This document shows, one piece after another, positions 1,273-25,187 of a DNA stretch of 33,674 nucleotides (its first letter is position 1; every line of letters begins with the position of its first letter). The translations under genes were made by a program, and so were the position numbers. The notes beneath the pieces are model-generated. The model saw nothing but the letters and a program-made list of their open reading frames with translations. It was not told the origin of the DNA and searched no databases. This stretch comes from Nitrospirota bacterium (GTDB lineage Bacteria > Nitrospirota > Leptospirillia > Leptospirillales > Leptospirillaceae), in assembly GCA_021827365.1 (NCBI GenBank), contig JAKAWK010000011.1, positions 1 to 33,674 on the forward strand, written 5' to 3'.

Positions 1273-2035
1273 TCAGGAACGGTGACGCCTGGCTGTCATG
1301 CACGGAGGCCGAGGTCAGAAGGCAGGCAACCGGAAGCCCTCCTTCGACCACGGAGACATGAAGTTTGTATCCCTTCCAATACTCGTGTTTCCCCTGGCTG
1401 TTTTTCTTCCCGCCCCAATTGCACACTTTGGGAATCGCCCGTTCCATCTTGCCCGGCGTCATGGGAAGGTACCGCTCCACCCCGGACGGGACCTTCTGGA
1501 CAACGGATTCTCCTTTTCTTGGACGGCCCCGTTTTCTCGACTTGACGACCACGCTCTTCCTGGTGTTCCGGGCCGTTTCCCTCGCCTTGATGGCCGAAGA
1601 GTCGTGGGCCGTGTGACAAATCCCCCGGTCCTTCACCTGGGCGTTCGCCAAGGCTTCCTGAGCCCGGAGGGGGATGTTCAGACAGGCCAGCGTGGAGTTG
1701 ACCCGGGAGAATGCCGATTCGTCGGGCAACCTCTTTCCGAGCTTCCAGCCCAGAATCCGGCGCAGATTGCCGTCGACTTCGACCCGGGCGATCATGTCGC
1801 GGGTTGCCGCGATGTTCAGAACGGCTTTGGCCACGAAAAACCGGGCGAAGGGCACCCAGTCGTAGGCAGGCCGGCCTGTCCAGCTCCGGTTCTGGTGAAT
1901 GCTTTCCTCGATGCGGACCACTTCAAGGATTGCGATGATCTTCTTGTGCTCCTCCGTCAGGACTTCCGCAAAGATGCGTTCAAAACGGGGAAACAGAAGT
2001 TGCGGAATATGATTCCAGAACGGACTGAATTTCAT
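1235..2035 (-). pseudogene. IS5-like DDE transposase, 3' end removed by the IS256 insertion
   Basis: The 266-residue product has an N-terminal DUF772-like region (about 55-110, with LGWKLGKRLPDESAFSRV) followed by the start of a DDE domain: AHDSSAIKARE with the first catalytic Asp, a basic linker KSRKRGRPRKG, and WKGYKLHV followed by LTSASVHDSQ, where the second Asp lies. Family members continue for another 100-200 residues. Here similarity stops after SPFLIK at about 1270 and the frame runs into IS256 end sequence. The start is secure: ATG at 2033-2035 is preceded by AAGGAGG at a good distance. The upstream inverted repeat is at 2134-2156. The third catalytic residue is absent, so it should be inactive. 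Assignment to IS5 rather than a neighbouring DDE family is tentative. Confidence 0.75.
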
Positions 2036-2133
2036 CGAGCCTCCTTAAGGTATTGGGAGTGGTGCATCGATGAAATAATTATATATTATAAATACTTAAA
2101 CGTAAACTCAGAGAAAATCGCTCGGCCGCACGA

Positions 2134-2156
2134 GTTTTGCAAGAGGCTCCTGGTAA
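2134..2156. repeat. Left inverted repeat bracketing the polysaccharide operon (IS end)
   Basis: The sequence GTTTTGCAAGAGGCTCC followed by TGGTAA is, apart from one extra base, the reverse complement of 9331-9352. It lies about 100 bases upstream of the IS5-like transposase start and 11 bases beyond the stop codon of the membrane glycosyltransferase gene. It is therefore probably the terminal repeat of that IS. Confidence 0.6.
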
Positions 2157-2167
2157 ATCAATTTGGC

Positions 2168-3688
2168 TCACTTTTCTGTGGGCATTGTTTCCAGCATGGC
2201 TGGCCATAATTTTGATTGCAGCATGCCAGTCAAGTCGAGGGTTGTTGCTGTACCCTCGGAAGCATGATTGCATTTATTTTCCATAACCAAAGAAATGGCG
2301 TGAGTGAAATGAACGCTTTTTAGGGTTTCACCAATAAAAGAGGGGATATCTTGGATAAATGCTGATGTTGGCATTCCGTACTCATCCGACAGGATCGGTG
2401 AGATGACTTGATAATGAAGGGGACACAGGAGAATCGTTTTGAGATCTGGATTTTTTTTAATCAGATTGAGTCTGTTCTTTGCATATGTTAATTCGAAAAC
2501 AGCTGGTTTGACTAATGTATCACGCACAAAATGAAATTGTAGTATTGTGCCACCAATTAAAAATGGAACAATCAAAAACATTTCGGACCATAATTTTTGA
2601 GTTGAAGCATGTGCGATGGACGCAACCGCTCCGGACATATAAGCGATCACCACAATCCAGACTGGAAACATAGTTCTCAGAAATGTAACAGGAAAGTTGG
2701 AAACCAGAACAGGTGAGAATGCAATCCCACAAAGGATTGGATAAAGTAACAACAAGGAAATTTTCTTTCCTATGGAGAGTCTTGATACGGTGATTCCGAC
2801 AATAATAACTCCGATCAAGAACCAGGGAAACCATGCTATGGGGTTTGCAAACCAAAACCTATGGATAATAGGCATTGATGTATGAAAAAAATCATTGATC
2901 CGTTCCAGGGTAGAATTCAATGGATGCATCGATCTACTGGGATCGGCGACCTTCAAATTCTGATAGGAAGTGGGGATATACCATAATCCATATAGGGCAA
3001 TAGAGATAATTCCTAATGAACCCATCTGGATCGTTTTTTGCGCCCACAATAAATCATCGTCTGTGAGCCAATGCCATAAACTGAATGCCAAAAGACCCCA
3101 ATACAACATTGCAGAGGGCTGATACGTCAAAGTTGCTGCACCAAAAAAGACAACTGAGAGCATCAGGAAGAAGATCTTGTTCAAACCATGGATTCTATTT
3201 TCAAGAACATGGTAGGCAATCAATCCGGAAATGATCGAAAAAATAGCCCCAACTACAATAAATGAGGCTGTGATCCAGAATGCACAGATCGCAACGGCTG
3301 GGACTGTGAGAGTTAAGGCAGACAAGAGTAGGGCTTTTAATGGAGCAATGTTATTTTTAACAAGATAGACGAATAGAAGATATGCCATGACAGCAATACT
3401 GATGAGGATAATGAATCGTACAAGGCTACCTTCTTCGGAAGAGTGAACAAACTTTGAATATCCGCAAAGGATCCACCCTCCAAGCGGTCGGCCCATATCT
3501 GAGTACCAGTTAATGCTTATTGGAGACCATGGGCACCTTCCGGAACCCTCATTAAAATTGAGATAATCATCATGAAACAGATAGTTCCCCTGAATAGTAG
3601 GATAAAACATTAACAATGAATAGATAAATAATATTGCAGCTACGATTAGGTTATTGTTAAGAAACCTATTGATCTTTTCATAGATCAC
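2168..3688 (-). CDS. Multi-pass membrane glycosyltransferase, GtrII-like
   Basis: This 506-residue integral membrane protein has a first membrane segment at about 14-32, a periplasmic loop with HDD at 39-41 and GRPLGG near 66-71, then some ten further hydrophobic segments and a soluble C-terminal tail of about 100 residues. The acidic pair after the first membrane segment plus GRP is typical of GtrII-type and related GT-C enzymes. These transfer a sugar from a polyprenyl-phosphate donor to lipopolysaccharide at the periplasmic face. It follows gtrB with a one-base overlap (TAG/GTG), so the two are translationally coupled and should act as a donor-making and a transferring enzyme. The start is GTG. 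The DNA is visibly AT-rich compared with the core. The sugar and acceptor are unknown, and another GT-C function is possible. Confidence 0.7.
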   Translation of the reverse strand: MIYEKINRFLNNNLIVAAILFIYSLLMFYPTIQGNYLFHDDYLNFNEGSGRCPWSPISINWYSDMGRPLGGWILCGYSKFVHSSEEGSLVRFIILISIAVMAYLLFVYLVKNNIAPLKALLLSALTLTVPAVAICAFWITASFIVVGAIFSIISGLIAYHVLENRIHGLNKIFFLMLSVVFFGAATLTYQPSAMLYWGLLAFSLWHWLTDDDLLWAQKTIQMGSLGIISIALYGLWYIPTSYQNLKVADPSRSMHPLNSTLERINDFFHTSMPIIHRFWFANPIAWFPWFLIGVIIVGITVSRLSIGKKISLLLLYPILCGIAFSPVLVSNFPVTFLRTMFPVWIVVIAYMSGAVASIAHASTQKLWSEMFLIVPFLIGGTILQFHFVRDTLVKPAVFELTYAKNRLNLIKKNPDLKTILLCPLHYQVISPILSDEYGMPTSAFIQDIPSFIGETLKSVHFTHAISLVMENKCNHASEGTATTLDLTGMLQSKLWPAMLETMPTEK

Positions 3689-4647
3689 TATGATTGTTCT
3701 CCAAGATTTTTTGAAAAGTGTTTTTCGGACTCCACAATTGTCAGCGGTTTATTTTTTACCTGGTTGAAGATCCTCCCAATATAGGCCCCGATGATCCCCA
3801 AAAAAAGCGTATTGATTGATAGGGAGAAAAGCTGGATCAGGACAATTGTCGTGAACCCCCTGGGCCAATGGGAACCAATCAACCAGTGAGAAATAAAAAC
3901 TCCGAGGATACCTACTGATGTCAGAAGGAAAAAGACCATTCCGGAATAAAAGACAATCCTCAATGGCATGACGGAATGATTAATAATGCCGTCCACACCC
4001 AATACGAAAAGGTTAGCCCAACTGAATTTACTTTTCCCTCTGGTTCTAGCCTGTCGATCATAAGGAATCCCGATCTGACGGAAACCCATTTCGGAAATGA
4101 TTCCCCTCAGATAAGGGCTATCATCTTTGACTAGCCTGATTTCTTCCAAAATTCTGCGATCGACCAATCTAAAATCACCTGCATCCACAGGAAGGTTCTG
4201 GTCACTGATGACACTCACAAAACGATAATAGATTTTTCGAAGTGCATGAATCAGGAAGCCCTCTTCCCGAGTTCTTCGAATGCCAAAAACAACTTGGTAT
4301 CCTTGCTCCCAAAGATTTAAAAACTCTGGGACCAACCCAATCGGATCCTGAAGATCGCAATCCAGTTGAACCGCAGCATCCCCTGTTGCGTTCAGATACC
4401 CGGTCAATATTGACTTCTGATATCCAAAATTTCGTGAAAATCGTATGATGTGAACTCTTGGATCTCTCTTTGCAATGGCTTCCAGAAGTTGCCATGTTTT
4501 ATCGTGACTATGATTATCTGTGAACACAAACTCAAAGTTATAGCGCTGCTTGAGAGATTCTGTCATTTCCGATACTTGCTCGTAGAAAAATTCAATATTT
4601 TCTTCTTCATTGAAAACTGGCACCACGAAAGAAATTTTTTTCTTCAA
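3688..4647 (-). CDS. gtrB: Polyprenyl-phosphate glycosyltransferase, GtrB/DPM1-like
   Basis: This 319-residue GT2-family enzyme would move a hexose from a nucleotide sugar to bactoprenyl phosphate at the inner face of the cytoplasmic membrane. The N-terminal GT-A domain shows FVVPVFNEEENI (7-18), TDNHSHDKT (43-51) and the metal-binding DCDLQDP (96-102). Two membrane hairpins lie at about 230-255 and 265-290, as in GtrB/YfdH and ArnC-type proteins. The start is TTG at 4645-4647, overlapping the upstream stop as TTGA and preceded by AAAGGGA at about 5 bases. Downstream it overlaps the GtrII-like transferase by one base. The flippase GtrA that usually accompanies gtrB is not next to it. Confidence 0.82.
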   Translation of the reverse strand: MKKKISFVVPVFNEEENIEFFYEQVSEMTESLKQRYNFEFVFTDNHSHDKTWQLLEAIAKRDPRVHIIRFSRNFGYQKSILTGYLNATGDAAVQLDCDLQDPIGLVPEFLNLWEQGYQVVFGIRRTREEGFLIHALRKIYYRFVSVISDQNLPVDAGDFRLVDRRILEEIRLVKDDSPYLRGIISEMGFRQIGIPYDRQARTRGKSKFSWANLFVLGVDGIINHSVMPLRIVFYSGMVFFLLTSVGILGVFISHWLIGSHWPRGFTTIVLIQLFSLSINTLFLGIIGAYIGRIFNQVKNKPLTIVESEKHFSKNLGEQS

Positions 4648-5546
4648 GAGAGTCCCTTTTGCATGACATCTTCCAATGTTTTCCGGATTCCAGACTCAAT
4701 GTCGTGTTGGCACCTCCAGCCGAGGGCCTCAATTCCTGTGACGTCAGCACTGGAGTTCATGATTTCATTTTCTCGATAAGGAACTCCACCAAACACAAGT
4801 TTTGTCTTTGACCCTGTAACTCTGTGCACGGTTGACACAAAATCTCGTATGCTGACAGTTTGTCCGGTTCCGATCCCGAATTGGGTAAATCCGAAAGGGA
4901 TTTCCTCCAATTTATCCAAGAGAGTTATGTAAGCCTCCGCTACATCGTCGATATAAACGAAATCGCGCTTCTGTTCCCCAAGGGTAAGCTGTAATTCTGG
5001 AACATTTTGAAGGCAATTTCGGATGATATGGGACACGAATTTGCAATTGTCGTCTTCCGGTCCATAGAGATGTTCAAGACGCAAGTTGAGAAATCTTATT
5101 TTTCCTGATCCAGCAATGAGCTTTCCCTGTTCCATGAACTGACGTTTTGAGAGGGCATAACTGCTCAAGTAATTGGTTAAGGGGGACTCTGTGTTGAAAT
5201 ACGTATCCGTATTGAAAAACGTATCCGTATTGAAGAGGATCGCTGTCTCAAGAAGTTTCAGGGGAATCACCACATTTGAATCAAATATTGAGGAAACGGT
5301 TTCGCCGTGCTTCCCATAACAGGTTGCGGTATGAAGAACCACATCCACTCGATCAAGCTTTTCGAAGGGTTTTTCAAGTCCGTCTTCGACATCGAAAATA
5401 TGCAGATGAGGGATCAGGGAAGCAATTTTTTCCAAGCTGGAGGACTTTCGCTTGAGGAGAACGATCGTGTAGTTTTCAGCTAGCAGAGATTTTACGAGAT
5501 GACTCCCGAGAAAACCGGTTCCTCCGGTTATCAGTATGGTTTTCAT
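4644..5546 (-). CDS. NAD(P)-dependent SDR sugar epimerase/reductase, CDP-abequose/paratose synthase-like
   Basis: This 300-residue extended short-chain dehydrogenase has the nucleotide-binding GGTGFLGSHL at 8-17, the catalytic pair in YALSKRQF (about 130-137) and a sugar-binding C-terminal half. Next to rfbF/G/H it most likely reduces the CDP-4-keto-3,6-dideoxyhexose they make, as RfbJ (abequose) or RfbS (paratose) does. The product stereochemistry cannot be read from the sequence. The ATG start is one base beyond the stop of the toxin-RfbH fusion. An oddity is a duplicated hexapeptide (FNTDTF / FNTDTY, then a degenerate third FNTES) just before the catalytic Tyr, caused by an 18 bp tandem duplication in the region that supplies the catalytic Thr/Ser. 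Confidence 0.75.
   Translation of the reverse strand: MKTILITGGTGFLGSHLVKSLLAENYTIVLLKRKSSSLEKIASLIPHLHIFDVEDGLEKPFEKLDRVDVVLHTATCYGKHGETVSSIFDSNVVIPLKLLETAILFNTDTFFNTDTYFNTESPLTNYLSSYALSKRQFMEQGKLIAGSGKIRFLNLRLEHLYGPEDDNCKFVSHIIRNCLQNVPELQLTLGEQKRDFVYIDDVAEAYITLLDKLEEIPFGFTQFGIGTGQTVSIRDFVSTVHRVTGSKTKLVFGGVPYRENEIMNSSADVTGIEALGWRCQHDIESGIRKTLEDVMQKGLS
5199..5234 (-). repeat. 18 bp tandem duplication inside the SDR gene
   Basis: Two 18 bp copies at 5217-5234 and 5199-5216 differ at one base. Each encodes FNTDT plus F or Y. A partial third copy continues to about 5185 (FNTES). The reading frame is kept. Confidence 0.85.
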
Positions 5547-5547
5547 G

Positions 5548-7167
5548 TCAGCGGGTTTTTAAGACCGAACTTTGGAAAAAGTTTTTCATATGACCACCTA
5601 GATAGTCCAGCATTACTTCAGCCAGTCCTGGATACACACCGATCCAGAAAGTGTTGTTCATGATCAGATCGGTATTTGTAAGTGTGCCGCTCACGCGGTA
5701 GTGCTTCTTTTGGAAATAGGGCTGACGGGTCAGATTCCCTGCAAATAGGAGACGACTGCCAATTTTGTGCTGATCCAGGTATTTGAGGAGATCCAGTCGT
5801 TCTATTCCAGTTTTTTTTTGAAGTGTGACGGGAAATCCAAACCAGGCTGGATCACTTCCTTCGGTTGCTTCAGGTAGGATCAGAAACTCCTGCAGTTCAG
5901 ATAGTCGATTTCTTAAATAACGAAAGTTGCGCTTTCTGGTCGCAATGAATTCCGGCAACCGGTCCAATTGCGCAAGACCGACTGCTGCCTGCATGTCCGT
6001 GACTTTCAGGTTATAGCCTACATGAGAGTATGTGTATTTGTGGTCGTATCCCTGCGGCAGTCCGCCCAGTTGCCATCCAAAGCGCTTTCCGCAAGTATTG
6101 TCTTTGCCCGGAGGACAGTAACAGTCTCGACCCCAATCGCGGAAAGACTCAAGAATTCGCTTGAGTTTCCCGCTTTTGGTAAATACTGCGCCGCCTTCGC
6201 CCATTGTAATGTGATGGGCAGGATAGAAGCTGAGTGTGCCGATGTCTCCGAAGGTGCCGACCTTTTTGTCCTTGTATGTGGAACCCAGAGCATCGCAGCA
6301 ATCCTCGACAATCCAGAGGTCATATTTTTTGGCGACTCTCATCACTTCATCAAGGGCAAAGGGATTTCCCAATGTGTGGGCAATCATGATGGCCCTGGTT
6401 TTGTCGGATACCGCTTTCTCGATTTGTGAGGGATCGATATTGTAAGTAGGAATTTGTATGTCGACAAAAACCGGTACCAAGCCATTCTGAAGCAAAGGAT
6501 TCACTGTGGTCGGAAAGCCTGCGGCGACAGTGATGACTTCATCTCCGGATTTCAGAGCTTTCTCTCCCAGTTGGGATGAGGTAAGGGCTGAAACCGCCAG
6601 CAAATTTGCCGACGAGCCGCTGTTTGTTGTAAGGACATACTTGATCCCCAGAAATTCTCCCAGCTTTTTCTCAAAGGCATCGTTGAAACGTCCTGTGGTA
6701 AGCCATGCGTCGAGAGAAGCATCGGCCATATTCTGAAGCTCCTCAGTACCGATTACTTTACCTGAGGGAGGGATAACACTGACTCCAGGTTCAAATGGGT
6801 GTTTTTTCAGGCTGTAGGAGGAAAAGTGAGGAATTTCCGACAAGATCAGTCTGCGCCAGACTTTGGCCATTGTAGGAGCAGTCAGTTGCGCCAGTGGTTT
6901 GATAACAATATCCTTGTGCAATAGTATTGCTTTGTCTAAACGCAGGTGACTTGGGAATGGGAGAGGTTCACCACAATAATCGTCTTTTACAAGTTCAAAG
7001 CCTTGAGAATCACTTTCAACGGGTGTACGAGTGATAAACAAGAACCTGACATCGCCATTCTTGTCTGGCATCGTGAGGGCTAAGGCTGGACGGGCCTTGT
7101 TTCCTGACAAATCGGTGAAAGGAAATGGGAGTTTATAAATTCCCCCTGCCAGAACCTCACAGGTCAT
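5548..7167 (-). CDS. rfbH: Fusion of a MazF/PemK-like toxin domain with RfbH, CDP-4-keto-6-deoxyglucose 3-dehydrase
   Basis: From ATG at 7165-7167 the product has 539 residues; an upstream in-frame start at 7209 is less likely. Residues 1-115 read as a MazF/PemK-type domain: [15 protein letters not shown], then ARPALAL with the Arg (26) that is catalytic in MazF, FLFITRTP with the conserved Thr (46), and a C-terminal helix [12 protein letters not shown]. Residues 116-539 are RfbH (DdhC/E1), the PMP-dependent [2Fe-2S] enzyme that removes the 3-OH of CDP-4-keto-6-deoxyglucose. It has [35 protein letters not shown] with His in place of the usual PLP lysine, and the iron-sulfur cysteines in [12 protein letters not shown]. 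RfbH proteins are normally about 440 residues with no such extension. Start choice: ATGACCTGTGA overlaps the stop of the antitoxin-like gene, as in toxin-antitoxin pairs. An internal ATG at 6868-6870 could give a free RfbH of about 440 residues. RNase activity is inferred from motifs only. Confidence 0.85.
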
Positions 7168-7372
7168 TCCACACATCCTCTTCAGACCTTCCAAGGACCT
7201 CTTGGGCAAACCCAGTCATTTCCTGCATTTTGGCAGTGGCAATCTTTTTGTTTGGAAGATCTTCATCCAGATCCAGAACGATGACTTCAAGACGAGTTCC
7301 TGCCGGTTTCCCAACCTTTAGATGCAGGATCCCGTCTTCACCGACGGTTTCCACGGTCCTCATAGCGTGCAT
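7157..7372 (-). CDS. Small antitoxin-like protein upstream of the toxin-RfbH fusion
   Basis: The product is about 71 residues from ATG 7370-7372; a GTG three bases upstream and an ATG at 7361-7363 ([11 protein letters not shown]) are alternatives. It has an N-terminal beta-rich stretch ([20 protein letters not shown]) and an acidic, helical C-terminus (LDLDEDLP...[18 protein letters not shown]). This matches the layout of small antitoxins encoded before PemK/MazF-like toxins, where the N-terminus dimerises and the acidic tail wraps the toxin. GAGGGAG lies about 6 bases before the start. It overlaps the rfbG stop as TGATG and the fused toxin's start by 11 bases, so it sits inside the sugar operon. 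The family is unnamed here; the role is inferred from neighbour and shape. Confidence 0.65.
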
Positions 7373-8448
7373 CACAGTTCTCCCTCATTTTGATAAGCAC
7401 GAATCTGACTGATCGTTCTCTCGCGCATCTCTTCCTTATTTGCATAGGCACGATACCAGTCGCTGATCGTCTGCAGGGCAGTTTCAAGATCCCATCGTGG
7501 CATCCAGCCGATTCGTGTTCTGCTTTTTGAAGAGTCCAGCTTAAGGTAGTGCGCTTCGTGGGGGTGTTTCCCCTCGGCCAATGTCCAGAGAGCACTTTCA
7601 CCCCAGAGAGTGGACAATCGATCCGCAATCCATTCGACTGGTTTGGCATCCTCATCATTTGGGCCGAAATTCCACGCTTCGGCATAATTCGGCCCTTCTG
7701 CCCATAGCTTCTCTGCCAGCAAGAGATATCCTGAAAGTGGCTCCAATACATGCTGCCAAGGACGTATTGCTTGAGGATTTCGGATAATTGCTGGCTGCTT
7801 TTCCATGATCGAACGCATAATATCTGGAATCAGCCGGTCATTTGCCCAATCCCCCCCGCCGATTACATTTCCGGCACGGGCAGATGCCAATGCAACACCG
7901 TGGCGCTCAAACTCGGCAGGATTAAAAAACGAGTTACGAAACGCTGAAGTGAGCAACTCTGAGCAACCCTTGCTGTTGCTGTAGGGATCGTAACCGCCCA
8001 TCGGTTCGTTTTCACGGTAACCCCAAGCCCATTCTCGGTTTTCGTAGCACTTATCGCTGGTGATATTGACCACGACCTTTACTCTACCAACACGGCGGAC
8101 GGCTTCGAAAAGGTTTACTGTGCCCATGACATTAGTTTCATAGGTTTCTACCGGATTGGCATAAGAGTAACGCACCAAAGACTGGGCAGCCATGTGAAAG
8201 ACAATCTCGGGTTGGTGGGAAGAGACTACGGTCTGGATTTGCTCCAGATCGCGTACATCACCTATGCAGGAAGTCATTCCACCAGCAACATGGGCTGATT
8301 CAAAAAGACTTGGTTTCGTGGGCGGCGGGAGAGAATACCCAACGACCTTGGCTCCCACGCACTGGAGCCAAAGAGAAAGCCAACTGCCCTTGAATCCGGT
8401 ATGACCTGTGATAAGAACTTTTTTATTTTTCCAAAAAGAGGGATCCAT
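7372..8448 (-). CDS. rfbG: CDP-glucose 4,6-dehydratase
   Basis: This 358-residue SDR enzyme turns CDP-glucose into CDP-4-keto-6-deoxyglucose. It shows GHTGFKGSW near residue 15 for NAD binding, the HMAAQSLVRYSY segment, NITSDKCYEN with the TSDK catalytic stretch, and YDPYSNSK with the YxxxK pair. Length and motifs match RfbG/DdhB throughout. The start is ATG at 8446-8448, which overlaps the rfbF stop as TGATG and has GGAAGA about 7 bases upstream. In-frame ATG 8454 and GTG 8451 are possible. The longer frame back to 8532 would lie inside rfbF and is not supported. Its product is the substrate of the RfbH half of the downstream fusion protein. Confidence 0.93.
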   Translation of the reverse strand: MDPSFWKNKKVLITGHTGFKGSWLSLWLQCVGAKVVGYSLPPPTKPSLFESAHVAGGMTSCIGDVRDLEQIQTVVSSHQPEIVFHMAAQSLVRYSYANPVETYETNVMGTVNLFEAVRRVGRVKVVVNITSDKCYENREWAWGYRENEPMGGYDPYSNSKGCSELLTSAFRNSFFNPAEFERHGVALASARAGNVIGGGDWANDRLIPDIMRSIMEKQPAIIRNPQAIRPWQHVLEPLSGYLLLAEKLWAEGPNYAEAWNFGPNDEDAKPVEWIADRLSTLWGESALWTLAEGKHPHEAHYLKLDSSKSRTRIGWMPRWDLETALQTISDWYRAYANKEEMRERTISQIRAYQNEGEL

Positions 8449-9215
8449 CACCATATCTTCCAGGGTGCCTTGCCGGAAGCCCAGAGATCTTCCAGGTGAA
8501 TCTTGTCGCGCAAGGTATCCATTGGCTGCCAAAAACCTTCGTGCAAATAGGCCGATAGCTGTCCTTCACGAGCCAGACGCTCCATCGGTCCGCGTTCCCA
8601 GACCGTATCGTCGTCATCAATGTAATCAATGACCTTGGGAGACAGTACGAAGAAACCGCCATTGATCCATCCGCCATCCCCCTCGGGTTTTTCATGAAAG
8701 CTGTTTGCCATACCTCCATGAACATTGATTGCACCGAAGCGACCTGGAGGCTTTGTGGCGGTCAGCGTCGCCAATGTGCCTTTCGACTTGTGCAGACTCA
8801 CCAAATCAGAAATATTCACGTCTCCTACGCCATCACCGTAGGTGCAACAGAAATCTTCTTCTTCCAGATACCTCCGTATCCGTTTTATTCGCCCACCGGT
8901 CATTGTGCTCTCGCCCGTATTTACCAGTGTGACACTCCATGGTTCGGCACTGTTTTGATGAATCTCCATCTTGTTCTGAACCATATCGATCGTCACATCG
9001 GACATATGGAGAAAGTAATTGGCGAAATATTCTTTGATCACATAGCCCTTGTATCCCAAACATATAATGAAGTCATGAATGCTATGAGTAGAGTAGATTT
9101 TCATGATGTGCCACAGGATGGGTTTGCCGCCGATCTCCACCATGGGTTTTGGGCGAGTAGAGGTTTCCTCGCTGATTCGTGTCCCCATTCCTCCAGCCAA
9201 AATGACAGCCTTCAT
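8448..9215 (-). CDS. rfbF: Glucose-1-phosphate cytidylyltransferase
   Basis: RfbF/DdhA joins CTP and glucose-1-phosphate to CDP-glucose, the first committed step to 3,6-dideoxyhexoses. The 255-residue product begins [18 protein letters not shown] and continues with [17 protein letters not shown], the nucleotidyltransferase signature. YGDGVGDV near 128 supplies the metal-binding Asp, and WINGGFFVL and [10 protein letters not shown] are typical of the family. I chose ATG 9213-9215 because the family starts MKAVILAGG and a GAGGGG lies just upstream; ATG at 9236 would add seven residues. It is the first gene of the operon. No strong promoter is evident in the roughly 115 bases before the right IS end. 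Confidence 0.93.
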
Positions 9216-9330
9216 CTTCCCCTCGGTCTTCTTCATTCATTTCTTGGTGAAAGTTTTGATCGTTGCTATCTTGGAATTCGTTCTCCCCATCTCATTCGAG
9301 GAGTAGGTCCGACTCATTTTTGAACGGATG

Positions 9331-9352
9331 TTACCAGAGCCTCTTGCAAAAC
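9331..9352. repeat. Right inverted repeat bracketing the polysaccharide operon (IS end)
   Basis: TTACCAG followed by AGCCTCTTGCAAAAC is the reverse complement of 2134-2156 with one base missing. It points outwards relative to the left copy. Confidence 0.6.
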
Positions 9353-9485
9353 ACAAAAAATTCCGGCAAAGAGGACCTGTGGAAACTGATGGAAACCCGT
9401 GTATTGGGACCCCGCCCTCTTGAAAGGGAATTTGAGGGCAAAAATGATCCAAATCCATGAAATTTTCTCTACCCAGGGGCACCTC
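9331..9485 (+). mobile_element. 5'-end remnant of an IS5-like element
   Basis: Beyond the IS-end repeat come about 105 bases of non-coding sequence and then ATG at 9457-9459 coding for MKFS. These are the first four residues of the IS5-like transposase at the other end of the operon. The frame then stops after about a dozen codons. I read this as the left end of a related but not identical IS whose body is gone. It faces away from the operon, mirroring the left copy. Confidence 0.4.
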
Positions 9486-9502
9486 ACCGAGTCTCTGATC
9501 GA

Positions 9503-9898
9503 TCACCGCCTTATTTCTTTTCCGATAGCCTTACTTTTATTTCGCTCATTCAGAAGGATCTCCCAAGGATGACTCGAATCGTCACCCAAGGGGATAATCA
9601 TTACGCGAGGCCGTGGTTCGGGATCTCCGAGGATAATAACATTCTTGCCGGATAGACTGGATCGGTATTCTCTAGACAGGCTGTAGACGTAGGGATCCCC
9701 TTTTTGGCCACATCCTCCTCGGAGAATAGCTCCGGTATCCACGAGGCACCGGAGTTCCATGAAGTAATCCGACCGCCTCATTCGCGTTCTTGCAAAAAGT
9801 TCGCCGGATGCCATTGGGCCAGATACCAAGGTCATCATGATGCGGCTTTCCTGCCTCTTCACCAGCTTTCTTTTTATAGTCGGACTATTGCGTCCCAA
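9503..9898 (-). CDS. Putative winged-helix DNA-binding protein
   Basis: This product of about 132 residues starts from TTG at 9896-9898, which has a very strong GGGAGGGGG some 6 bases upstream; an ATG at 9838 is an alternative. The segment GPMASGELFARTRMRRSDYFMELRCLVDTGAILRGG followed by DPYVYSLS reads like a winged helix, with helix-turn-helix, recognition helix and beta wing. The C-terminal 40 residues (VIILGDPEPRPRVMIIPLGDD) are unassigned. It lies downstream of the replication operon on the same strand and probably regulates or assists it. No specific function can be named. Confidence 0.5.
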   Translation of the reverse strand: MGRNSPTIKRKLVKRQESRIMMTLVSGPMASGELFARTRMRRSDYFMELRCLVDTGAILRGGCGQKGDPYVYSLSREYRSSLSGKNVIILGDPEPRPRVMIIPLGDDSSHPWEILLNERNKSKAIGKEIRR

Positions 9899-10131
9899 CT
9901 CATCCCCCTCCCGTGATGTGTCACGCTTACAGGAAGTGCCATTTTCCGGTTCTGATCTTCTGTAGACCAGCATTCACCAATGCCGATGTCAGATCCCGCA
10001 ATGATGTGCCTTTTGCCGGGCTTTTTTCCGGAGAAAATACCGATCTGCCTCCGTCAGGTATATCGTCACCGGGACCAGCCCTTCGCTGGCTCTTTTGACC
10101 CGGCATTTGGCCTGTCTTTGCGCGGGTATCT

Positions 10132-10884
10132 TCATCGCAGTTGTATTTCTTTCTCAGAAGGGGGCTCCCACGCCTTCCCTTCATATCTCGGGGGAGCCAG
10201 CCAGTAATATTCCCGACCTCTATTTCGCTCCACCTTCAGGTCACCATCCTCAACAAGCCTATTGAGCCCCTTTCTGGCCTCTCCGATCGAAAGCCTACAT
10301 TTCCTGGCCAGTTTTCCGATATCGAGCTGATCCGAGAGAGCAAATCGAAGATTCAGAAGAACCCAGGCAAACACTTTGACATGAGGTTCATCGTTTACGT
10401 AGGCAAGGGGAGTCCCATCGGCCGGGTGACGGATAACCGGTTCCCCGAGATCTTCAGGGGTCTCGCTGGCATACTTGATCCCGATCCTCTCTCCCATGGA
10501 AATGGGATCTTCATTACCCTGTAGCTGGGACGGACCCGATGTTTGGACATCTGTTTCAGGGAATGGCATTTTTGGCTGGTCCCGCTGGTCCAACTGGGCC
10601 ATATTCTCGGATTGTGGCGCCAATACTAACTCTTCACGGTTCATTGCCTCTGGACCACTGCTCAGTTTCACACTGGTCCCGCTGGTCCCAAAATTACTCC
10701 GGGAGTCAGAAAAGGGCCTTGGGACCAAATCCGGGACCACAGGGACCAGTCCGTTTTTTTCACTGGTCCCAACATGTCTGTCAACGGAAGTCGCATTGTT
10801 ATATACATTTTCTTCATTCTGGCCCAGTGGGACAACTGGGACCAGCGGTTTTAATGATTCCCGAAGAATTTCTGCAATGCTCAT
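10132..10884 (-). CDS. Element-borne protein with disordered N-terminus and C-terminal winged-helix domain
   Basis: The 250-residue product has an N-terminal 130 residues rich in Pro, Ser and Gly, with repeats such as LVPVVP and GTSGTS that follow a repeated DNA heptamer. The C-terminal 90 residues form a compact domain (VFAWVLLNLRFALSDQLDIGKLARKCRLSIGEARKGLNRLVEDGDLKVERNRGREYYWL; positions about 165-225). That domain has the shape of a winged helix, with KLARKCRLS/EARKGLNRL as helix-turn-helix. The start ATG overlaps the primase-helicase stop as ATGA, so it is co-translated with it. A role in origin recognition or copy control is possible but unproven. Confidence 0.65.
   Translation of the reverse strand: MSIAEILRESLKPLVPVVPLGQNEENVYNNATSVDRHVGTSEKNGLVPVVPDLVPRPFSDSRSNFGTSGTSVKLSSGPEAMNREELVLAPQSENMAQLDQRDQPKMPFPETDVQTSGPSQLQGNEDPISMGERIGIKYASETPEDLGEPVIRHPADGTPLAYVNDEPHVKVFAWVLLNLRFALSDQLDIGKLARKCRLSIGEARKGLNRLVEDGDLKVERNRGREYYWLAPPRYEGKAWEPPSEKEIQLR
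10577..10844. repeat. Cluster of TGGTCCC/GGGACCA heptamers, iteron-like
   Basis: There are eight exact copies in 268 bases: TGGTCCC at 10577, 10674, 10683 and 10764, and its reverse complement GGGACCA at 10721, 10733, 10742 and 10838. A one-mismatch copy lies at 10586. A 7-mer should occur there far less than once by chance. The copies lie in the part of the overlapping gene that encodes low-complexity protein, next to primase and helicase genes. Confidence 0.6.
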
Positions 10885-13436
10885 TCGTGCGACTCCTTTC
10901 CAAAGACCGCCGAAGTGAAGACATAAACCCGTTTTCTTCCCAAGCCAGGAAGACTTTCGCGTTGGGGGATATGCGTTCCGTCAGGATCAGGGATCAGCCA
11001 TCCCGCATCGATGAGGATCCGTGTCGCGGTCTGAAGATTCAATCCCTTGATGATCTCTGCCTTGAAAGACTCAGGCAGAACAAAGAATCTCGTATCTCCA
11101 TCTTCCTCCTTACGGAATCCAACCCGATTCACGATCCGGATGTTGTCATCAGCCTCGAACGGTTCGAATCGACTCGACCCATGAGCTTCAAAAAATTGCC
11201 GGACCTGGGAAAGGATCTGATTCCTCTCCTGATTTCCCGATCCACCACGATGTTGAAGCCATGCCTTGAAGCAGGAGGAAGCCGATTCCTCCGCCTCACC
11301 CTCTGGCCAGCCCGTGATGCCAAAAAGGGTTGCCAACTCCCCAGCGCAGGCGATCAGAGCGAACCGATCCGCCACGCGCCTGACCTGCCCTTCGGATCCC
11401 TCTGGAAGATTCGCGGTCAGAAATTCAGCCATCCCCGTTCGGATGAAAGATTTGATATTCTCCAAGATTCCCGTGATCCCTGTCAGGAAAGATCGGATGG
11501 GAGTCCCGTAGAACTTCCTTGAGACATCTTTAAGGTGGTCTGAAAAAACACCTCCATCCTTGAACCCATGCAAATCCTCAAAGACGGTGCCTGGGCTGGG
11601 TTCGGCAGGAATATCGAGAAACCGGACCATCATTCCAGCCTTTGGGAAATGCCCTCCCGAAGCCATGTGAGCCGTGATGGTAATTTCTCCGGTCGATAGG
11701 GCCAGCGTCCTCCAGATCACTGTCTTCCTGATTCCTCCTGAACGATTCGCCCGTGACTTAGCCTGACCGTTCGCAATGAGGTATGCTGCATGGCCCGATA
11801 TTCTTGGATCCGACTGTCCCAGTTCATCAAAGACCGAGAGGCAATCGTTCAGACCTGCAAGAACCCCCTCAAGACCGTTATCTGTGGTCCGCCATGAACG
11901 GACGTAGTCTCTGGAGCCATAGACAGAAGTTGAAACCTGGATAAGTGAGGTCTTCCCCGTAGAACTGGCACCGAAGAAATGATTCACCCCCGAATCGACC
12001 CCACCGAGGTGCAGAAGAGGTGCGGCAAAAGCTGTCGAAATGGCAAAGATAAGCCGTGAATTTCCAGCACAAAGTTTCCCGATATTGTCCCGCCATTCCT
12101 CGACAGTGCCGGAGGTCAGAAAAAGATGGTCGGTTGTTTCCGACTGAAATAGGATCCTTTCCGGGCCTTTGTTTCCAAATGTCTCATCCGGAAGGACAAA
12201 GACATCCTCATACCAACCGATCTTTGGGACGCACCGAATCCGGGCCTTTGGAGAGGATAGCTTCACAAAGTCCTCGAGAAGGCGCTTGCTCTTCTGACCG
12301 GAGGCGAGGATGTAGCCGAGACGTGCCAGCTCCCGGTGAAAGTCGCTCGTGTCTGCCCCAAGGAGCGTTGCAGGACACACCCAGACGTGGGGGATCCCAT
12401 CGGGATCAGTGAACCGAAGGACACGCCCCCAATCCTCCGATTTTTTATCCCGGACAAGGGCCTCAACAATGAGCGGAGCCCCAATCCGGATTTCCCTCTC
12501 TCGAGGGTTCCCGTCGTCATCCTCTTTGATTTCCAAGGCATAGAGGCCCCCTTCCTTGATCCTGAAGCCATGGGGAATGCCTTGGAATTTATCCTCTTCG
12601 ACTCCAGGCAATTCCGGGGGCTTTGTCAGAGTCTTCAATTTCTCCAAGGAGTTTCCGGCTGCGAGGTAGTCATCCACCCCAACTTTCTTTCCGCTTTCCC
12701 CATCAGGAAGGTAGAGGATGATGACATTCGCCCCCCGTCCCCGAAGGAAGTTGGCAAGGCGATCCCTGGCATTCTCTACCTTGGGATTACGATCGGCGTC
12801 CGAATCAAAAACGAGGTAAACGTTTCGCCCTTTGAGTGCAATACTTTCCCAGTCCGAAAGGGCCGTCGTCCCTCCTTTCTCATTGCTTCCGCGCCAATTC
12901 CAAACTCCGGAAAGAGCGACCACGCATCGGGTACCATGTGATAGGAGAGAGTCTGCCTTCCGGACACCTTCGGTAATCCAGAGGTCCACTGCGGGAGTTC
13001 CGATGTGGGAAAAGGACCGAGGATGAACATCCAGGCACATCCGAGACCGGGCTGGGGTCTCGTATTTGACCGCCTTTCCTTCCCGGTTCTTTCGTGGAGC
13101 GTCTGGCCGGGATTGAATATTTCCAATTTTCCCATCGATGGTATGGAGGGGAATAAGGAGTGTCGGGGTCTGTTGCTGAGCGGGTGTAAAACCAAGAGAG
13201 GCCAGAGCCTCCTTGTTTCCGACCGTCCGATATCCCCGCTCCCTGATGATTTCCAGTGAGATTCCTGACTCTTTCTCCAACATGTGGGTATGGACATCAG
13301 AAAGTTCGGCGATGGGTAAGGTACGGATGATAGGATCCGGATCGGGAACCGGATCCCTTTTTCTTTTTCCATCCGGCATCACCTCCGGGTCGAGAAAGCC
13401 TTGTGGTTCTGAAATCAGTTCTGTAGAATTTGACAT
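10881..13436 (-). CDS. Primase-helicase: TOPRIM-like (DUF3854) plus DUF927-type ATPase
   Basis: This product of about 851 residues comes from ATG 13434-13436, which has GGAGGAG upstream; an in-frame ATG further up at 13502 lacks support. The N-terminal part has LWITEGVRKADSLLSHG (near 160), the acidic LVFDSDADRNPKV (near 210) and VGVDDYLA, the layout of TOPRIM-like DUF3854 domains in phage and plasmid primases. The middle and C-terminal part is a DUF927-type helicase domain with Walker A FGASSTGKTSL (near 480), Walker B LSVFDELGQSD and GEITITAHMASGG. Such proteins start or drive replication of integrative elements and plasmids. It overlaps the downstream winged-helix gene as ATGA. Both nucleotide-binding motifs look intact, unlike the helicase gene upstream. 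Confidence 0.8.
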   Translation of the reverse strand: MSNSTELISEPQGFLDPEVMPDGKRKRDPVPDPDPIIRTLPIAELSDVHTHMLEKESGISLEIIRERGYRTVGNKEALASLGFTPAQQQTPTLLIPLHTIDGKIGNIQSRPDAPRKNREGKAVKYETPARSRMCLDVHPRSFSHIGTPAVDLWITEGVRKADSLLSHGTRCVVALSGVWNWRGSNEKGGTTALSDWESIALKGRNVYLVFDSDADRNPKVENARDRLANFLRGRGANVIILYLPDGESGKKVGVDDYLAAGNSLEKLKTLTKPPELPGVEEDKFQGIPHGFRIKEGGLYALEIKEDDDGNPREREIRIGAPLIVEALVRDKKSEDWGRVLRFTDPDGIPHVWVCPATLLGADTSDFHRELARLGYILASGQKSKRLLEDFVKLSSPKARIRCVPKIGWYEDVFVLPDETFGNKGPERILFQSETTDHLFLTSGTVEEWRDNIGKLCAGNSRLIFAISTAFAAPLLHLGGVDSGVNHFFGASSTGKTSLIQVSTSVYGSRDYVRSWRTTDNGLEGVLAGLNDCLSVFDELGQSDPRISGHAAYLIANGQAKSRANRSGGIRKTVIWRTLALSTGEITITAHMASGGHFPKAGMMVRFLDIPAEPSPGTVFEDLHGFKDGGVFSDHLKDVSRKFYGTPIRSFLTGITGILENIKSFIRTGMAEFLTANLPEGSEGQVRRVADRFALIACAGELATLFGITGWPEGEAEESASSCFKAWLQHRGGSGNQERNQILSQVRQFFEAHGSSRFEPFEADDNIRIVNRVGFRKEEDGDTRFFVLPESFKAEIIKGLNLQTATRILIDAGWLIPDPDGTHIPQRESLPGLGRKRVYVFTSAVFGKESHE

Positions 13437-13568
13437 AGGTGTAGTCTCCTCCTGGCCGTCCCGTGAAGACGGCCTTTTTTGTGCCATCATGCGCTCTGCC
13501 AAGAATCAATCCATTCTTGGACCTCCCTAGATCTCCATCCTGCAGCCCGGATCGAGAGTTTGATTTGC

Positions 13569-14982
13569 TTAGGAAATTGCCCTTTCCCCACTTTTCTCGA
13601 TATTCCGGATTTTCTCGTTTTGCGGGATTTTCTTATTTTTCACGTTTTTAATGCCCGTTTGTGGTTTATCTGGAGGGTTAATTGCTACCGGTGCGGACGA
13701 GATTGCTTGCCCATCTCCATCGTCAACCCGAATGACCCTGAGCCATTTTTCGGAGTCTCTTTTCGCGTAGGAGGCTTCCCCTTCGGTAATACATGTCATA
13801 TCAGGGTCCTTTCCGGGTTGCAGAACAACCGTCCACCTGCTCCCTGCCGGGAGATTAGAAGATCCACGGGAAGATTGCCCATGCTTCTCTCCATTCATCA
13901 TCCCGACCTTGTTTTGATGATGGATTTCCAACACGGCAGCACCGGGCTCCCTTGATATTCTCCGGAGGCACTGGACAAGGACCTTCGCAGCCCGATCATC
14001 GTTTTCGCTGGCATCCATGACTTCAGCGAGGGGGTCGAGGATGATCAAACTTACCCCTTTCCCATCGCGAATGATTATGTAGACGTTCGAGGTAGGGGCT
14101 GGGATTCCTCCTGAATCGACGGAAACGAGATCACATTCCCGAACGGGAAATATTCTGAGGTTTTCCGCCCCGTCTGCTATCCATCCATAGCCCGGCAATT
14201 GGCGAATGGACCAGATCCGTCTCCATATCACCGGAGCTGAATCCTCCATTGAAAAAAATAGGGCTTTCCCGACCTTCGGCGCGGGCCAGAGGGCCTTTCT
14301 GTCAGGAGCATGGGCAAACCCGGGCGGTCTCCGGCAACAGCCAGGGCAATATGCAACGCAAGAAATGATTTTCTCGTTCCGTCCGGCCCGATTATCATCC
14401 CGAAGATACCGGGTTCGGCCGGGAAATGACTAACGATAAACTCCTGAGAAGGCGGAGAGGTAGTGACGCACATCCGGACATCAAGGGGCTTGAATCCGTC
14501 ATCTTTCGGGATAGATTTTGCCAGCTCACCGATCTTTTGCTGGATTTGCAGGTTTTTTCTGGATTACCCTCGTTGACGGCCTTATCCAAAGAAGCGGCCA
14601 AGAGCTTGGCCCGTCGAAGTGGGGGTTTCTCCCGCAGGATCCGGGCATAACAGTTTGCATTACAAGCGGTGGGGACGATCTCGGAAAGTTCTGCGATATA
14701 TATCCGCCTTCCCCCTCCCAAATCGACGGCGGACTTTTCCATCCAGTTAGCAAGCGTGACCGGATCGATCCCGGCCCCATCACACCACAACTCCAGCATG
14801 GATTTATAGATTTGCCGGTGAATTTCGAGATGGAAATCCTCAGGAGTCAAAACCTCCCGGTCGAGAACTCCATTGTCCACAAAAATCGAGCCAAGAAAAA
14901 ACTTTTCGGCCTCAAAATCGTGGGGGAGATTCTTCAAACCATTGACAGGCTCCAACTGGCGAACTTTGGCGGAGGCTTTCAT
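13569..14982 (-). pseudogene. DnaB-N/RepA-like replicative helicase split over three frames
   Basis: The intended protein has about 470 residues. It starts at ATG 14980-14982 (ATGA overlap with the upstream gene). The first frame encodes a DnaB N-terminal-like domain (LPHDFEAEKFFLGSIFVDNG, YIAELSEIVPTACNA). Near 14550, at a run of six A, the sense continues in the -1 frame with LQIQQKIGELAKSI, then FGMIIGPDGTRKSFLALH. Near 14320 it shifts -1 again to GKALFFSMEDSAPVIWRR, LIILDPLAEV (Walker B) and LEIHHQNK, typical of RepA/AAA_25 RecA-fold helicases. The second shift falls on G GGT TTG, a canonical -1 slippery heptamer in the correct phase. The Walker A reads GPDGTRKS, with Arg replacing the usual Gly. 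Decay, sequencing error or recoding are all possible; decay is the simplest reading. Confidence 0.75.
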
Positions 14983-15215
14983 TTTCCACTTCCGGAACAT
15001 TTATTCTTAAATCTGTTCAATCCTTCCCCAATGAATCTCCAACTCCAGCTCAATCCATTCCGGATAAGCTCCTCAGGAATGTCCCGTTGCCTTTCTTCGA
15101 CCCGGTAACGGATGGTCTCGTATGCCGGGCCTATTCTTTGCCTTACGATTTTGAGACTAATAAATGGGGGGATCTTCTCCCTTGCGTCCACTCCGATCGA
15201 TTTTCTCTCGTTCAT
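14979..15215 (-). CDS. Small unknown protein of the replication operon
   Basis: This basic 78-residue protein (MNERKSIGVD...) contains a predicted helical core with SLKIVRQRIGPAYETIRYRV and LIRNGLSWSWRF. I recognise no family; the helix pattern could suit a small DNA-binding protein. It overlaps the upstream HTH gene and the downstream helicase gene by ATGA at both ends. That supports it being translated as part of a coupled set. Confidence 0.55.
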   Translation of the reverse strand: MNERKSIGVDAREKIPPFISLKIVRQRIGPAYETIRYRVEERQRDIPEELIRNGLSWSWRFIGEGLNRFKNKCSGSGK

Positions 15216-17366: not shown

Positions 17367-18833
17367 CTAAAGCCAGACATTGAGTCCGAACATCATGGTC
17401 GTGACAGCTCCAACATAGGCCTCTGCCAAAGATTCGTAGGAGATATTTCCGTAAAATTCAAGGTGGGGGCCTGCCTGGACGGAAACTCCGCCATCAGCCT
17501 GAAGTCCTACAAGAGGGCCAGGAGAATCAAATGTCCCGACCACACCTCCAATCTGCCCGTTTAAAACCACAAATCGGCCGATCTGGTCGAGGGTGGAAAG
17601 GCCGGCAAATCCGAAATTCGACGATAAAAGGACTGGGACAAGGCTTGTCGCATTCGGAATGAATGGTGTAAACGACTGGGTGTCGTATCCGGCAATCAGA
17701 TGAAGGTCAGGTTTTTTCAGAAAATCCCAGTCAAGGGCAAACATCGTGTTATGGTTCAGCCCGAATGGCGTCTTGCTTCCTCCCAGCGTGTCATAGGTGT
17801 ATTCATATTCGCCGGAGAATGTGAGGGTTGGAAAAATGGAAAGGGTTCCGTTCAACAGACCGCCACTCTGGAGAGCCCCATTCAGGAGAGCTTGCCCGTA
17901 CCCGCTCCAGGGAAGCATGTACCACCCCTGACCATCGATTCTCACCCGGCCGAGGGGGAGGTCAAAATGCCCATAAACCCCGGCATTGATCTCATTTCCG
18001 GCGAAAACATTCCCCACGTCCAGAAGATAATTCGTCTCACCGGGGCCCTGGCCGTCGACACCGGCAAAAAGGTAGTCTTCAGGTCCGCTTGTCTGTCCTG
18101 CCGCAGAACCCACATAGATGTTTGTTCCCACTTGAAAATGGACAATATCCTTGAACAAAGGGGTTTCAACCGTAATCCCTGTCCCGATTGTTGATCCGCC
18201 ACTATAGCCGATGTCAACGTTCTGGACACGGACATGATAATCGGAGTTTTCAATCTCATAGGTGGAAGGCGACTGGAGGGGCGGGGGTACGGTTTCCTGA
18301 AAATTTATATTCTGGTCGAAGGTTTCCAGGGGCGGAAGTGACATTGAGAGGACCTCGAGGGTTTTCCTGTCCTCCCGGATTTTTGCCCGGTCTTCCCGAG
18401 AAAGTGCCGGATCTTTGGCGAGCTTGTCCAGGATACCTCGCGCGCGGATCATCTCTCCCTGTTCCATGAGAAGCTCCGCCTTCAGCCGCAAAAGAGTCCG
18501 GTCACCGGGAAACTGACGGAGTCCTTTGTCCAGGATGGAGATCCCGTCCCCCGGACGATGAATTTTTCTGGTGATTCTCCCCCCGAGCGTGTAGGCTTGG
18601 TAATTTTTGGGGTGGAATTTGATGTAGTTGCCGATCTGCTCTTCCGCCAAGTGATATTTTTTCAGGGCGACGTTGCGGTTGATCGTTCTCCAGTCATGGT
18701 CGACATAGGGTTCTTCTGGCGGACCCGATGCACGGGCCGGGGAATTCCAGAACAGAGATCCGGACATGTTGGCAAAAAGACAAAGCATGAGAAAGGCCGG
18801 GGTCAACCCGGCCTTTCTGAATCGAAATCGCAT
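17367..18833 (-). CDS. Secreted TPR/beta-barrel outer-membrane protein
   Basis: The 488-residue product has a basic N-terminus, a hydrophobic stretch and a signal-peptidase site near ARA-S (34-35). Residues 45-165 form TPR-like helical repeats (YHLAEEQIGNYIKFHPKNYQAYTLGGRI, GISILDKGLRQFPGDRTLLRLKAELLMEQGE). From about 200 alternating aromatic/hydrophobic strands run to a C-terminal NVWL, as in an outer-membrane beta-barrel. TPR plus C-terminal barrel is the arrangement of exopolysaccharide exporters such as PelB and BcsC, though this protein is shorter. The ATG overlaps the stop of the coiled-coil repeat gene (TAATG), so the two are co-translated. Export of a polymer or of the repeat protein is a possible role; none is proven. 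Confidence 0.6.
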   Translation of the reverse strand: MRFRFRKAGLTPAFLMLCLFANMSGSLFWNSPARASGPPEEPYVDHDWRTINRNVALKKYHLAEEQIGNYIKFHPKNYQAYTLGGRITRKIHRPGDGISILDKGLRQFPGDRTLLRLKAELLMEQGEMIRARGILDKLAKDPALSREDRAKIREDRKTLEVLSMSLPPLETFDQNINFQETVPPPLQSPSTYEIENSDYHVRVQNVDIGYSGGSTIGTGITVETPLFKDIVHFQVGTNIYVGSAAGQTSGPEDYLFAGVDGQGPGETNYLLDVGNVFAGNEINAGVYGHFDLPLGRVRIDGQGWYMLPWSGYGQALLNGALQSGGLLNGTLSIFPTLTFSGEYEYTYDTLGGSKTPFGLNHNTMFALDWDFLKKPDLHLIAGYDTQSFTPFIPNATSLVPVLLSSNFGFAGLSTLDQIGRFVVLNGQIGGVVGTFDSPGPLVGLQADGGVSVQAGPHLEFYGNISYESLAEAYVGAVTTMMFGLNVWL

Positions 18834-19918: not shown

Positions 19919-20161
19919 GGACGCCCTCCTTAGTGTTTGGTCAATAAACAATACATGAGAATCTATCAGATGCGAACAAAAAAAGATGTGACGAAAATCA
20001 TGCCATCGAGGTTCTCTTCACCTCACAATTCTTCCCACATCCACCGAAATTATGCGCACGGGAATCCGTCTCACTTCCGTAACTTTCCAACAACCTCGAT
20101 GTCATAGCACCTCCCTACTCTAGGAACAATGGATCTCGTCCACCCTTAAGGGGAGGTTCCC

Positions 20162-21690: not shown

Positions 21691-21802
21691 ATCTCCCCTC
21701 ACACATTTCCATATGGATTTTCCCTTTCCCCTCCGGTATCATTTACATGAAAATACTTCATGAATCATTCATACTTAAACATTTCACTCCCATCATCCTT
21801 TC

Positions 21803-22585: not shown

Positions 22586-22618
22586 GACCTTGGGAGGATT
22601 GCATCTTCAGACAAAAAT

Positions 22619-22648
22619 GGTGCATTTTCTTTTTTTTGGGAGTATAAT
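22619..22648 (+). promoter_or_regulatory. Probable sigma-70-type promoter of the desaturase gene
   Basis: TATAAT at 22643-22648 is a perfect -10 box. A weak -35 (GTGCAT) lies 17 bases upstream. The transcript would start near 22655, some 70 bases before the desaturase ATG. Confidence 0.5.
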
Positions 22649-22723
22649 ATTTCAGATTGAGTCAATTCGATCATAAAGAGAGACTATGCTCTGCTCTCAT
22701 TCGAGAGGCTGGACAACGGCCTC

Positions 22724-23605: not shown

Positions 23606-23655
23606 AATCCGGGACCGTTTTCCCCCGGGTTCCGGTCGTCGTAAGAGGAGGACTG

Positions 23656-25176: not shown

Positions 25177-25187
25177 CCCGGCCTCCA

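Follow-up and report, generated by a model that had tools for sequence, protein, structure and literature searches.

In the usual description, a toxin-antitoxin module is a free unit of two genes. We describe here a gene in which a predicted MazF/PemK-type domain is joined in frame to the deoxysugar enzyme RfbH. It lies in a stretch of 33,674 nucleotides (nt), hereafter the window, of contig JAKAWK010000011.1 of a Nitrospirota genome (GCA_021827365.1). We put a probability of roughly 0.65 on the reading that, judging from sequence comparison, such genes arose when MazF-type toxin-antitoxin modules were captured by rfbH and have been kept as enzyme-borne toxins.

The closest described systems are the MazEF/PemIK type II modules (PF02452), which the locus resembles in its MazF fold, its Arg and Thr residues and a small upstream antitoxin-like gene overlapping the toxin; the antitoxin profile of the window type also matches small open reading frames (ORFs) of two stand-alone MazF pairs. 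It departs from them in carrying the toxin as the first domain of a metabolic enzyme of 539 residues, with the module set inside a sugar operon. Its enzyme part resembles RfbH/DdhC (E1, PDB entry 3bcx) in being a complete domain with the same active-site column and four spaced cysteines, whereas unfused RfbHs begin with an N-terminal helix of their own and here a MazF domain stands ahead, its last helix acting as substitute. Fusions of a toxin domain to another domain are also seen in SMC-HicA, fused HicAB and CapRel, where, in the accessible part of the source, the partner is an antitoxin/sensor or SMC domain (PMC10865869), whereas in the present case the toxin is joined to a biosynthetic enzyme, with the antitoxin left as a protein of its own. 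The accessible parts of that 2024 study of HicA contexts (PMC10865869) and of a 2009 survey of type II systems (PMC2701414) contain no toxin fused to a sugar enzyme, and no report of a MazF-RfbH fusion was found in open PubMed Central papers. MazF toxins, antitoxins and RfbH are known; the toxin carried on RfbH appears to be new.

The fusion gene and its antitoxin-like partner

The features that make up the locus are as follows.

5548..7167, minus strand: gene for the MazF-RfbH fusion, with 539 codons counted from the ATG at 7167 that relatives share
6838..7167, minus strand: predicted MazF-type domain, residues 1-110, with Arg26 and Thr46 (structure-based fold match, invariant Arg/Thr)
6796..6867, minus strand: junction, about residues 101-124 (predicted helices compared with unfused RfbH N-termini)
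5548..6798, minus strand: RfbH domain, CDP-4-keto-6-deoxy-D-glucose 3-dehydrase, E1 (NCBIfam score, alignment to 3bcx)
7157..7372, minus strand: antitoxin-like ORF, 71 residues from ATG 7372 or 72 from GTG 7375 (alignment, profile match)

A single open frame of 553 codons runs on the minus strand over 5548..7209 from a TTG at 7209 and is in frame with the ATG at 7167, the start common to relatives in an alignment of fusions of the window's type (type 1), which gives the 539-residue protein. Its last ~415 residues score 739 bits against the NCBIfam RfbH equivalog (cutoff 423), are 66% identical to the solved E1 dehydrase 3bcx and carry a His at the column of His220 in the alignment to that structure; entry 3bb8 is titled as the H220K mutant. 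The cysteines C291, C349, C351 and C359 (numbered from ATG 7167) are invariant in the aligned type-1 fusions, and their spacing, C-X57-C-X-C-X7-C, is one that we take to be the iron-sulfur motif. An earlier note on this DNA had described one uninterrupted frame holding a MazF-like domain and then a complete RfbH with His-for-Lys and Cys motifs, and had mentioned a 71-residue ORF; all of these elements are present, and the small ORF, stop codon included, reaches 11 nt into the fusion gene.

By its modelled structure, the N-terminal domain is a divergent MazF/PemK domain. When its AlphaFold2 model (pLDDT 83.7) was used in a structure search, all 50 of the 50 PDB matches listed were MazF/PemK-type mRNA interferases (probability 1.00, TM 0.60-0.70), a count that includes a few entries titled MoxT, YdcE, toxin or endoribonuclease, which we assume to be of this type; the fold named in the earlier note is the one recovered. 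PDB searches by sequence with the domain, and likewise with profile A3, gave nothing useful. All 10 aligned type-1 fusions have Arg26 and Thr46, the four other type-1 loci have them when their sequences are read, and across four subtypes none of the 16 aligned fused domains lacks the catalytic Arg or Thr. The equivalent residues are R25, in the MazF of Bacillus cereus and B. subtilis, and T48, at a position that takes Thr or Ser; in B. cereus MazF they have a catalytic role according to the accessible part of the source (PMC7354611). For a stand-alone MazF relative in the same alignment, Arg-Pro and Thr-Ser line up with the solved MazF6; the stand-alone set was picked by its Arg-Pro motif, and its Arg count is no evidence.

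In the window, the antitoxin-like ORF shares 11 nt with the start of the toxin and 1 nt with the stop of the upstream gene rfbG. An ORF of ~70-76 residues, overlapping the toxin start, stands ahead of the fusion in 14 of 14 type-1 loci; thirteen of them, including that of the window, were aligned and share the invariant residues Q51, F56, L61, E66, D67, W69 and N70, while that of L143 was found separately. In 13 of these loci the distance from the toxin ATG to the antitoxin end is 11 nt, and in L030 it is 8 nt; in L028 the toxin frame is interrupted after the ATG that overlaps the antitoxin-like ORF. The type-1 antitoxin profile matches the N-terminal part of two small ORFs beside stand-alone MazF genes (2.3e-8 and 1.7e-6). 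Across 105 loci scanned with the antitoxin profiles, none of the 68 labelled unfused and none of the eight labelled degenerate matched, and matches were limited to fused loci and one remnant, L147.

Recurrence, subtypes and degenerate forms

Scanning one genome per species with the N-terminal domain yielded 10 relatives, every one of which runs on into RfbH, eight in an open frame and two (L028, L033) across broken frames. Four are Gammaproteobacteria (one of Competibacteraceae, two Thiodictyon, one Thiorhodococcus), one is a Rhodoferax, two are Chloroflexota (Anaerolineae, Oscillochloris) and three are Campylobacterota (two Sulfurimonas, one of Campylobacteraceae). Additional type-1 loci are L034 and L035 in the window's own phylum and L143 in the Thiorhodococcus family, bringing the type to 14 loci including the window, in three named phyla and the window's own. 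The whole frame is open in 11 of the 14; L034 is cut by a contig end and L028 and L033 are broken. Among the carriers is a named strain, Thiorhodococcus mannitoliphagus DSM 18266. The 12 carrier genomes searched yielded no second RfbH-class gene (next matches 1.9e-73 or weaker), and in carriers G067, G399 and G404 the RfbH gene itself is in pieces. A plasmid search gave no match for the type-1 domain and one partial match for the type-2 (T2) domain; the viral contigs searched gave nothing useful.

A fusion unique to the window genome is ruled out by the 20 other loci that carry MazF-RfbH (13 of type 1, five of T2 including one fragment, one of T4 and one of T5). The earlier note knew of no RfbH homologue with such a domain; the search for further fusions that it proposed recovered the same architecture at 13 other type-1 loci. 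Recurrence also bears on a sequencing, assembly or frameshift artefact: the assembly of the window genome is in draft form, with 155 contigs, and the relatives L028 and L033 have broken frames, but the same open architecture with its in-frame junction recurs in ten other full-length type-1 genes from different assemblies, one of them of a DSM strain. We reject an artefact, whose chance we hold to be negligible, and a stop or frameshift between the domains, named by the earlier note as grounds for refutation if found by resequencing, does not appear in the assembled frame.

Three further MazF subtypes (T2, T4 and T5) are fused at the same place of RfbH, each with antitoxin-like ORFs of its own. 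T2 comprises L065, L144, L145 and L172 (the same gene as L154) and has a different MazF (PF02452 at 4.6e-12 and 46.5 bits in L065) with an antitoxin-like ORF of another type; the toxin ATG lies 17 nt before the antitoxin end in three of three loci measured, and L197, a fragment of T2, abuts a contig end and has no antitoxin within reach. T4 is L146 (PF02452 4.3e-6, 27.3 bits), with an antitoxin-like ORF ahead to which the type-1 antitoxin profile matches weakly (0.002). T5 is L196, from the window's own phylum (PF02452 3e-6, 27.8 bits); one antitoxin-like ORF overlaps its toxin start, a second lies before, and both the T2 and the T1 antitoxin profiles match. At L028 a T2-antitoxin-like piece lies upstream of the type-1 antitoxin, and together with L196 this hints, on sequence grounds, that modules may have replaced one another at a single site.

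Loss and decay are also seen. At L147 most of the antitoxin is read in frame straight into RfbH and the toxin core is gone, on account of which we regard this locus as a loss. In a firm degenerate group (L080, L082, L084, L087, L089), the N-terminal domain can be aligned to the MazF profile (P 6.6e-14, probability 98%); its catalytic Arg column holds M, V, L, D and E, and Thr is kept in one of the five (L080); no antitoxin profile match was found beside these five RfbHs. For L149/L150 (P 0.007) and L106 (P 0.0005), the match of the N-terminal stretch to MazF is too weak for a claim of homology.

Two observations made by eye concern other fusions. In L107 and L112, from the Chloroflexota sample, the open frame of RfbH includes an RmlD/SDR-like stretch ahead of the enzyme, which may be a further natural fusion, here of an operon neighbour to RfbH. 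L179 is a frame of 232 residues in which a MazF-like domain is followed by a P-loop stretch (GPNGAGKTTFA) resembling a zeta-toxin or similar kinase.

Histories of module and enzyme, and selection on them

The RfbH tree was built from 91 RfbH domains by a quick method under LG+G4; 13 of the 104 loci had no usable row (L028, L033, L034, L075, L084, L093, L106, L110, L111, L146, L148, L152, L154), and T4 and several fusions are absent from the tree owing to these dropped rows. Its 11 type-1 rows require 10 label changes, at least seven of them forced by well supported branches. Shuffled labels need 10.6 changes on average, and type 1 is therefore no more clustered than chance on this sample. Fused RfbHs of Campylobacterota and Chloroflexota sit among unfused RfbHs from samples of the same phylum. 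For the 11 complete type-1 genes, the antitoxin-plus-toxin tree and the RfbH tree reject each other in approximately unbiased tests (p 0.00023 and 0.00065), which disfavours joint inheritance of module and enzyme.

Comparison of fused with unfused loci located the module as an extra stretch. The upstream gene is shared in six of eight comparisons, with the module in between and DNA identity of 68-82% over the shared stretches: the extra stretch measures 481 nt in L031 against L114 and 467 nt in L032 against L131, the same insert pattern is seen in L030/L066 and L029/L096, and L065/L070 and L065/L072 have a T2 module with a longer extra stretch. No shared upstream stretch was found in the other two comparisons (L031/L121 and L026/L096). 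Such pairs alone leave gain and loss undistinguished.

With the thresholds applied, RfbH-class matches turned up in 41 of 398, 19 of 301, 37 of 298, 12 of 146 and 27 of 180 genomes; the genome at the centre of each sample, counted in these totals, had been picked because it carries a fusion. The domain is missing from most RfbHs sampled, which disfavours a structural need of RfbH for it. Of the 12 RfbHs in the Thiorhodococcus family, seven carry a MazF subtype (T1 in three, the broken L028 among them, T2 in three and T4 in one), and the other five are three remnant or weak candidates (L147, L149, L150) and two unfused genes.

Ratios of nonsynonymous to synonymous substitution rates (dN/dS) were calculated with our own Nei-Gojobori script. 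The pair L143/L025 gave 0.141 for MazF, 0.150 for RfbH and 0.155 for the antitoxin; L144/L145 gave 0.121, 0.139 and 0.242; L031/L032 gave 0.162 for MazF (at a dS of 1.8, near saturation) and 0.099 for RfbH; L026/L029 was saturated and gave no MazF ratio. In the degenerate pair L087/L089 the ratio is 0.66 for the domain versus 0.15 for RfbH, and the MazF-like domain of this pair is under relaxed constraint. L149/L150, whose stretches have no established MazF homology, gave 0.35 versus 0.09 for RfbH. Because, in the pairs measured, constraint is about as strong as that on RfbH where an antitoxin is present and gives way to drift in the degenerate pair without one, selection has probably acted on the fused MazF domain as a toxin rather than as something on which RfbH depends.

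The domain might instead be a domesticated regulator that controls the stability, oligomeric state or localisation of RfbH or binds the mRNA of its own operon, with the small protein as regulator; the earlier note had offered a regulator or stabiliser of RfbH as an option. Several features would suit this. RfbH is the sole large fusion partner seen in surveys. The antitoxin is often joined to the upstream sugar gene, leaving no space for a promoter of its own (a gap of 29 nt or less in seven of the 11 type-1 loci where it was readable), and promoter-like sites at positions 5000-10000 of the window are not in excess (5 found versus 5.2 expected). At the junction, helices are predicted at residues 97-110 and 112-119 in the full model and at 97-120 in the domain model, and the last MazF helix occupies the place of the N-terminal helix of unfused RfbHs when the predicted models are set against unfused N-termini. 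Yet unfused RfbHs of the same clade manage without the domain, L147 lost the toxin core and retained RfbH, and the RNase residues are kept with the antitoxin but lost, along with drift, in the firm degenerate group that lacks it. With RNase residues kept where the antitoxin is kept, we consider a regulatory role unlikely.

Neutral hitchhiking is a further alternative, in which selfish modules enter a hypervariable sugar cluster, happen to read into rfbH and form a fusion of no consequence. Patchy presence, remnants and possible module turnover (L147, L028, L196) speak for it. Four MazF subtypes, however, are in frame at the same helix, and among the MazF matches listed in frames of at least 300 residues no other enzyme occurs in two surveys: all three were RfbH in 395 genomes of the window's own phylum (G000, G304, G227), as were all six in 146 genomes of the Thiorhodococcus family. 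The constraint on MazF, similar to that on RfbH, also stands against inconsequence, and we find hitchhiking distinctly improbable.

Several observations weigh against capture and retention as a toxin. The N-terminal domain scores 18.7 bits against PF02452 (E 0.0021), under the gathering score of 23.1 bits (the type-1 relative L025 reaches 19.9 bits), and a clear match to the type-1 antitoxin profile occurs in just two of 28 small ORFs at stand-alone MazF genes. That Arg and antitoxin are lost together is seen in five firm degenerate domains, which are related to one another, and the weaker candidates L149 and L106, which have no antitoxin, show Arg at that column in an unreliable alignment. 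Most sampled RfbHs, judged by match start, are unfused except in the Thiorhodococcus family, and the fusion-partner surveys were queried with fused domains, a possible bias. In a MazF tree that includes 24 of 40 loci with stand-alone genes, T1 forms one clade (99/96), T2 another (100/99) and the two join at 51/89; the tests on this tree do not reject a single clade uniting every fused domain (p 0.0585) or T1 with T5 (p 0.13), and in a smaller tree T1 with T2 is not rejected either (p 0.43). As neither a single origin nor the union of T1 and T2 is rejected, we claim no number of captures.

One option in the earlier note was that an RNase-type toxin, attached to the enzyme with its own antitoxin, had been captured. 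Capture of toxin and antitoxin gene alike is borne out by the Arg and Thr residues, the overlapping antitoxin-like ORF and purifying selection, and we regard it as well supported because the toxin also decays or is deleted in relatives without an intact antitoxin; toxicity is a prediction from the protein sequence.

The window operon and what the fusion may do

The pathway partners rfbF and rfbG adjoin the fusion in the window, and an epimerase gene follows it.

7372..8532, minus strand: rfbG, for CDP-glucose 4,6-dehydratase, lying just upstream (NCBIfam TIGR02622, 521 bits, cutoff 278); its listed TTG start is probably too long
8448..9236, minus strand: rfbF, glucose-1-phosphate cytidylyltransferase (NCBIfam TIGR02623, 462 bits, cutoff 300)
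4644..5546, minus strand: SDR-type NAD-dependent epimerase/reductase, immediately downstream (Pfam Epimerase 5.2e-38)

Guanine-plus-cytosine (GC) content is 42-51% over 1501-9000 versus 57-65% over 21001-33000. No RfbH-class match was found in 13 congeners and seven other family members (best E 5.1e-26; many of these genomes are incomplete), and the sugar cluster therefore looks acquired. The topA gene on the contig is 98% identical to that of a congener, which places the contig in the genus of its genome and rules out a contaminant. Parts of transposases (Mutator family, DUF772/DDE_Tnp_1) lie at the edge of the cluster at 518-1225 on the plus and 1235-2035 on the minus strand. Also adjoining the cluster, at 10881-15000 on the minus strand, are a DUF927 protein, an AAA_25 protein and a DnaB N-terminal domain, with GC below that of the core part of the contig; this suggests an integrated plasmid-like or phage-like element. 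Further along, the ORF at 18833-19951 (minus strand) consists mostly of tandem copies of a coiled-coil-like unit, e.g. NPDLKADIAAVKAKIAKLRARLRTLR. PADLOC gave nothing useful.

Under the reading that we favour, a type II MazF module would have been taken up by the rfbH gene of a CDP-deoxysugar operon, the toxin becoming the first domain of the enzyme. The protein of ~71 residues, encoded immediately ahead in an overlapping frame, would be the antitoxin, binding and silencing the MazF domain while RfbH performs C-3 deoxygenation. Should the operon or island be lost or its expression stop, a presumably labile antitoxin would vanish first, and the leftover MazF-RfbH could then cut mRNA and halt growth. 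The benefit may be that a mobile surface-sugar operon is stabilised or guarded, for instance against phage. Fusion would make it hard to lose the toxin while keeping RfbH, or to lose the antitoxin at all, and may therefore stabilise such an operon; the mobile deoxysugar operon is probably tied to survival by the fused toxin, by which the operon would be hard to lose, as the earlier note had supposed.

A more speculative proposal, which we think rather improbable, is that RfbH is a preferred docking enzyme for MazF, that the state of the enzyme controls the toxin, and that MazF-RfbH guards the surface-sugar pathway with MazF subtypes swapped at the site. If true, the RNase would be released when the pathway, the iron-sulfur cofactor or the antitoxin supply is disturbed, as in phage infection, and a housekeeping enzyme would double as an abortive-infection effector with MazF subtypes swapped at one site.

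For the family, the enzyme-borne toxin means that a toxin can be part of a metabolic enzyme, have a history unlike that of the enzyme and decay where the antitoxin is missing. RfbH offers a natural series within one enzyme family, with the toxin intact, remnant, deleted or absent, in which it becomes testable that toxin modules may be selected for tying a mobile surface-sugar operon to survival.
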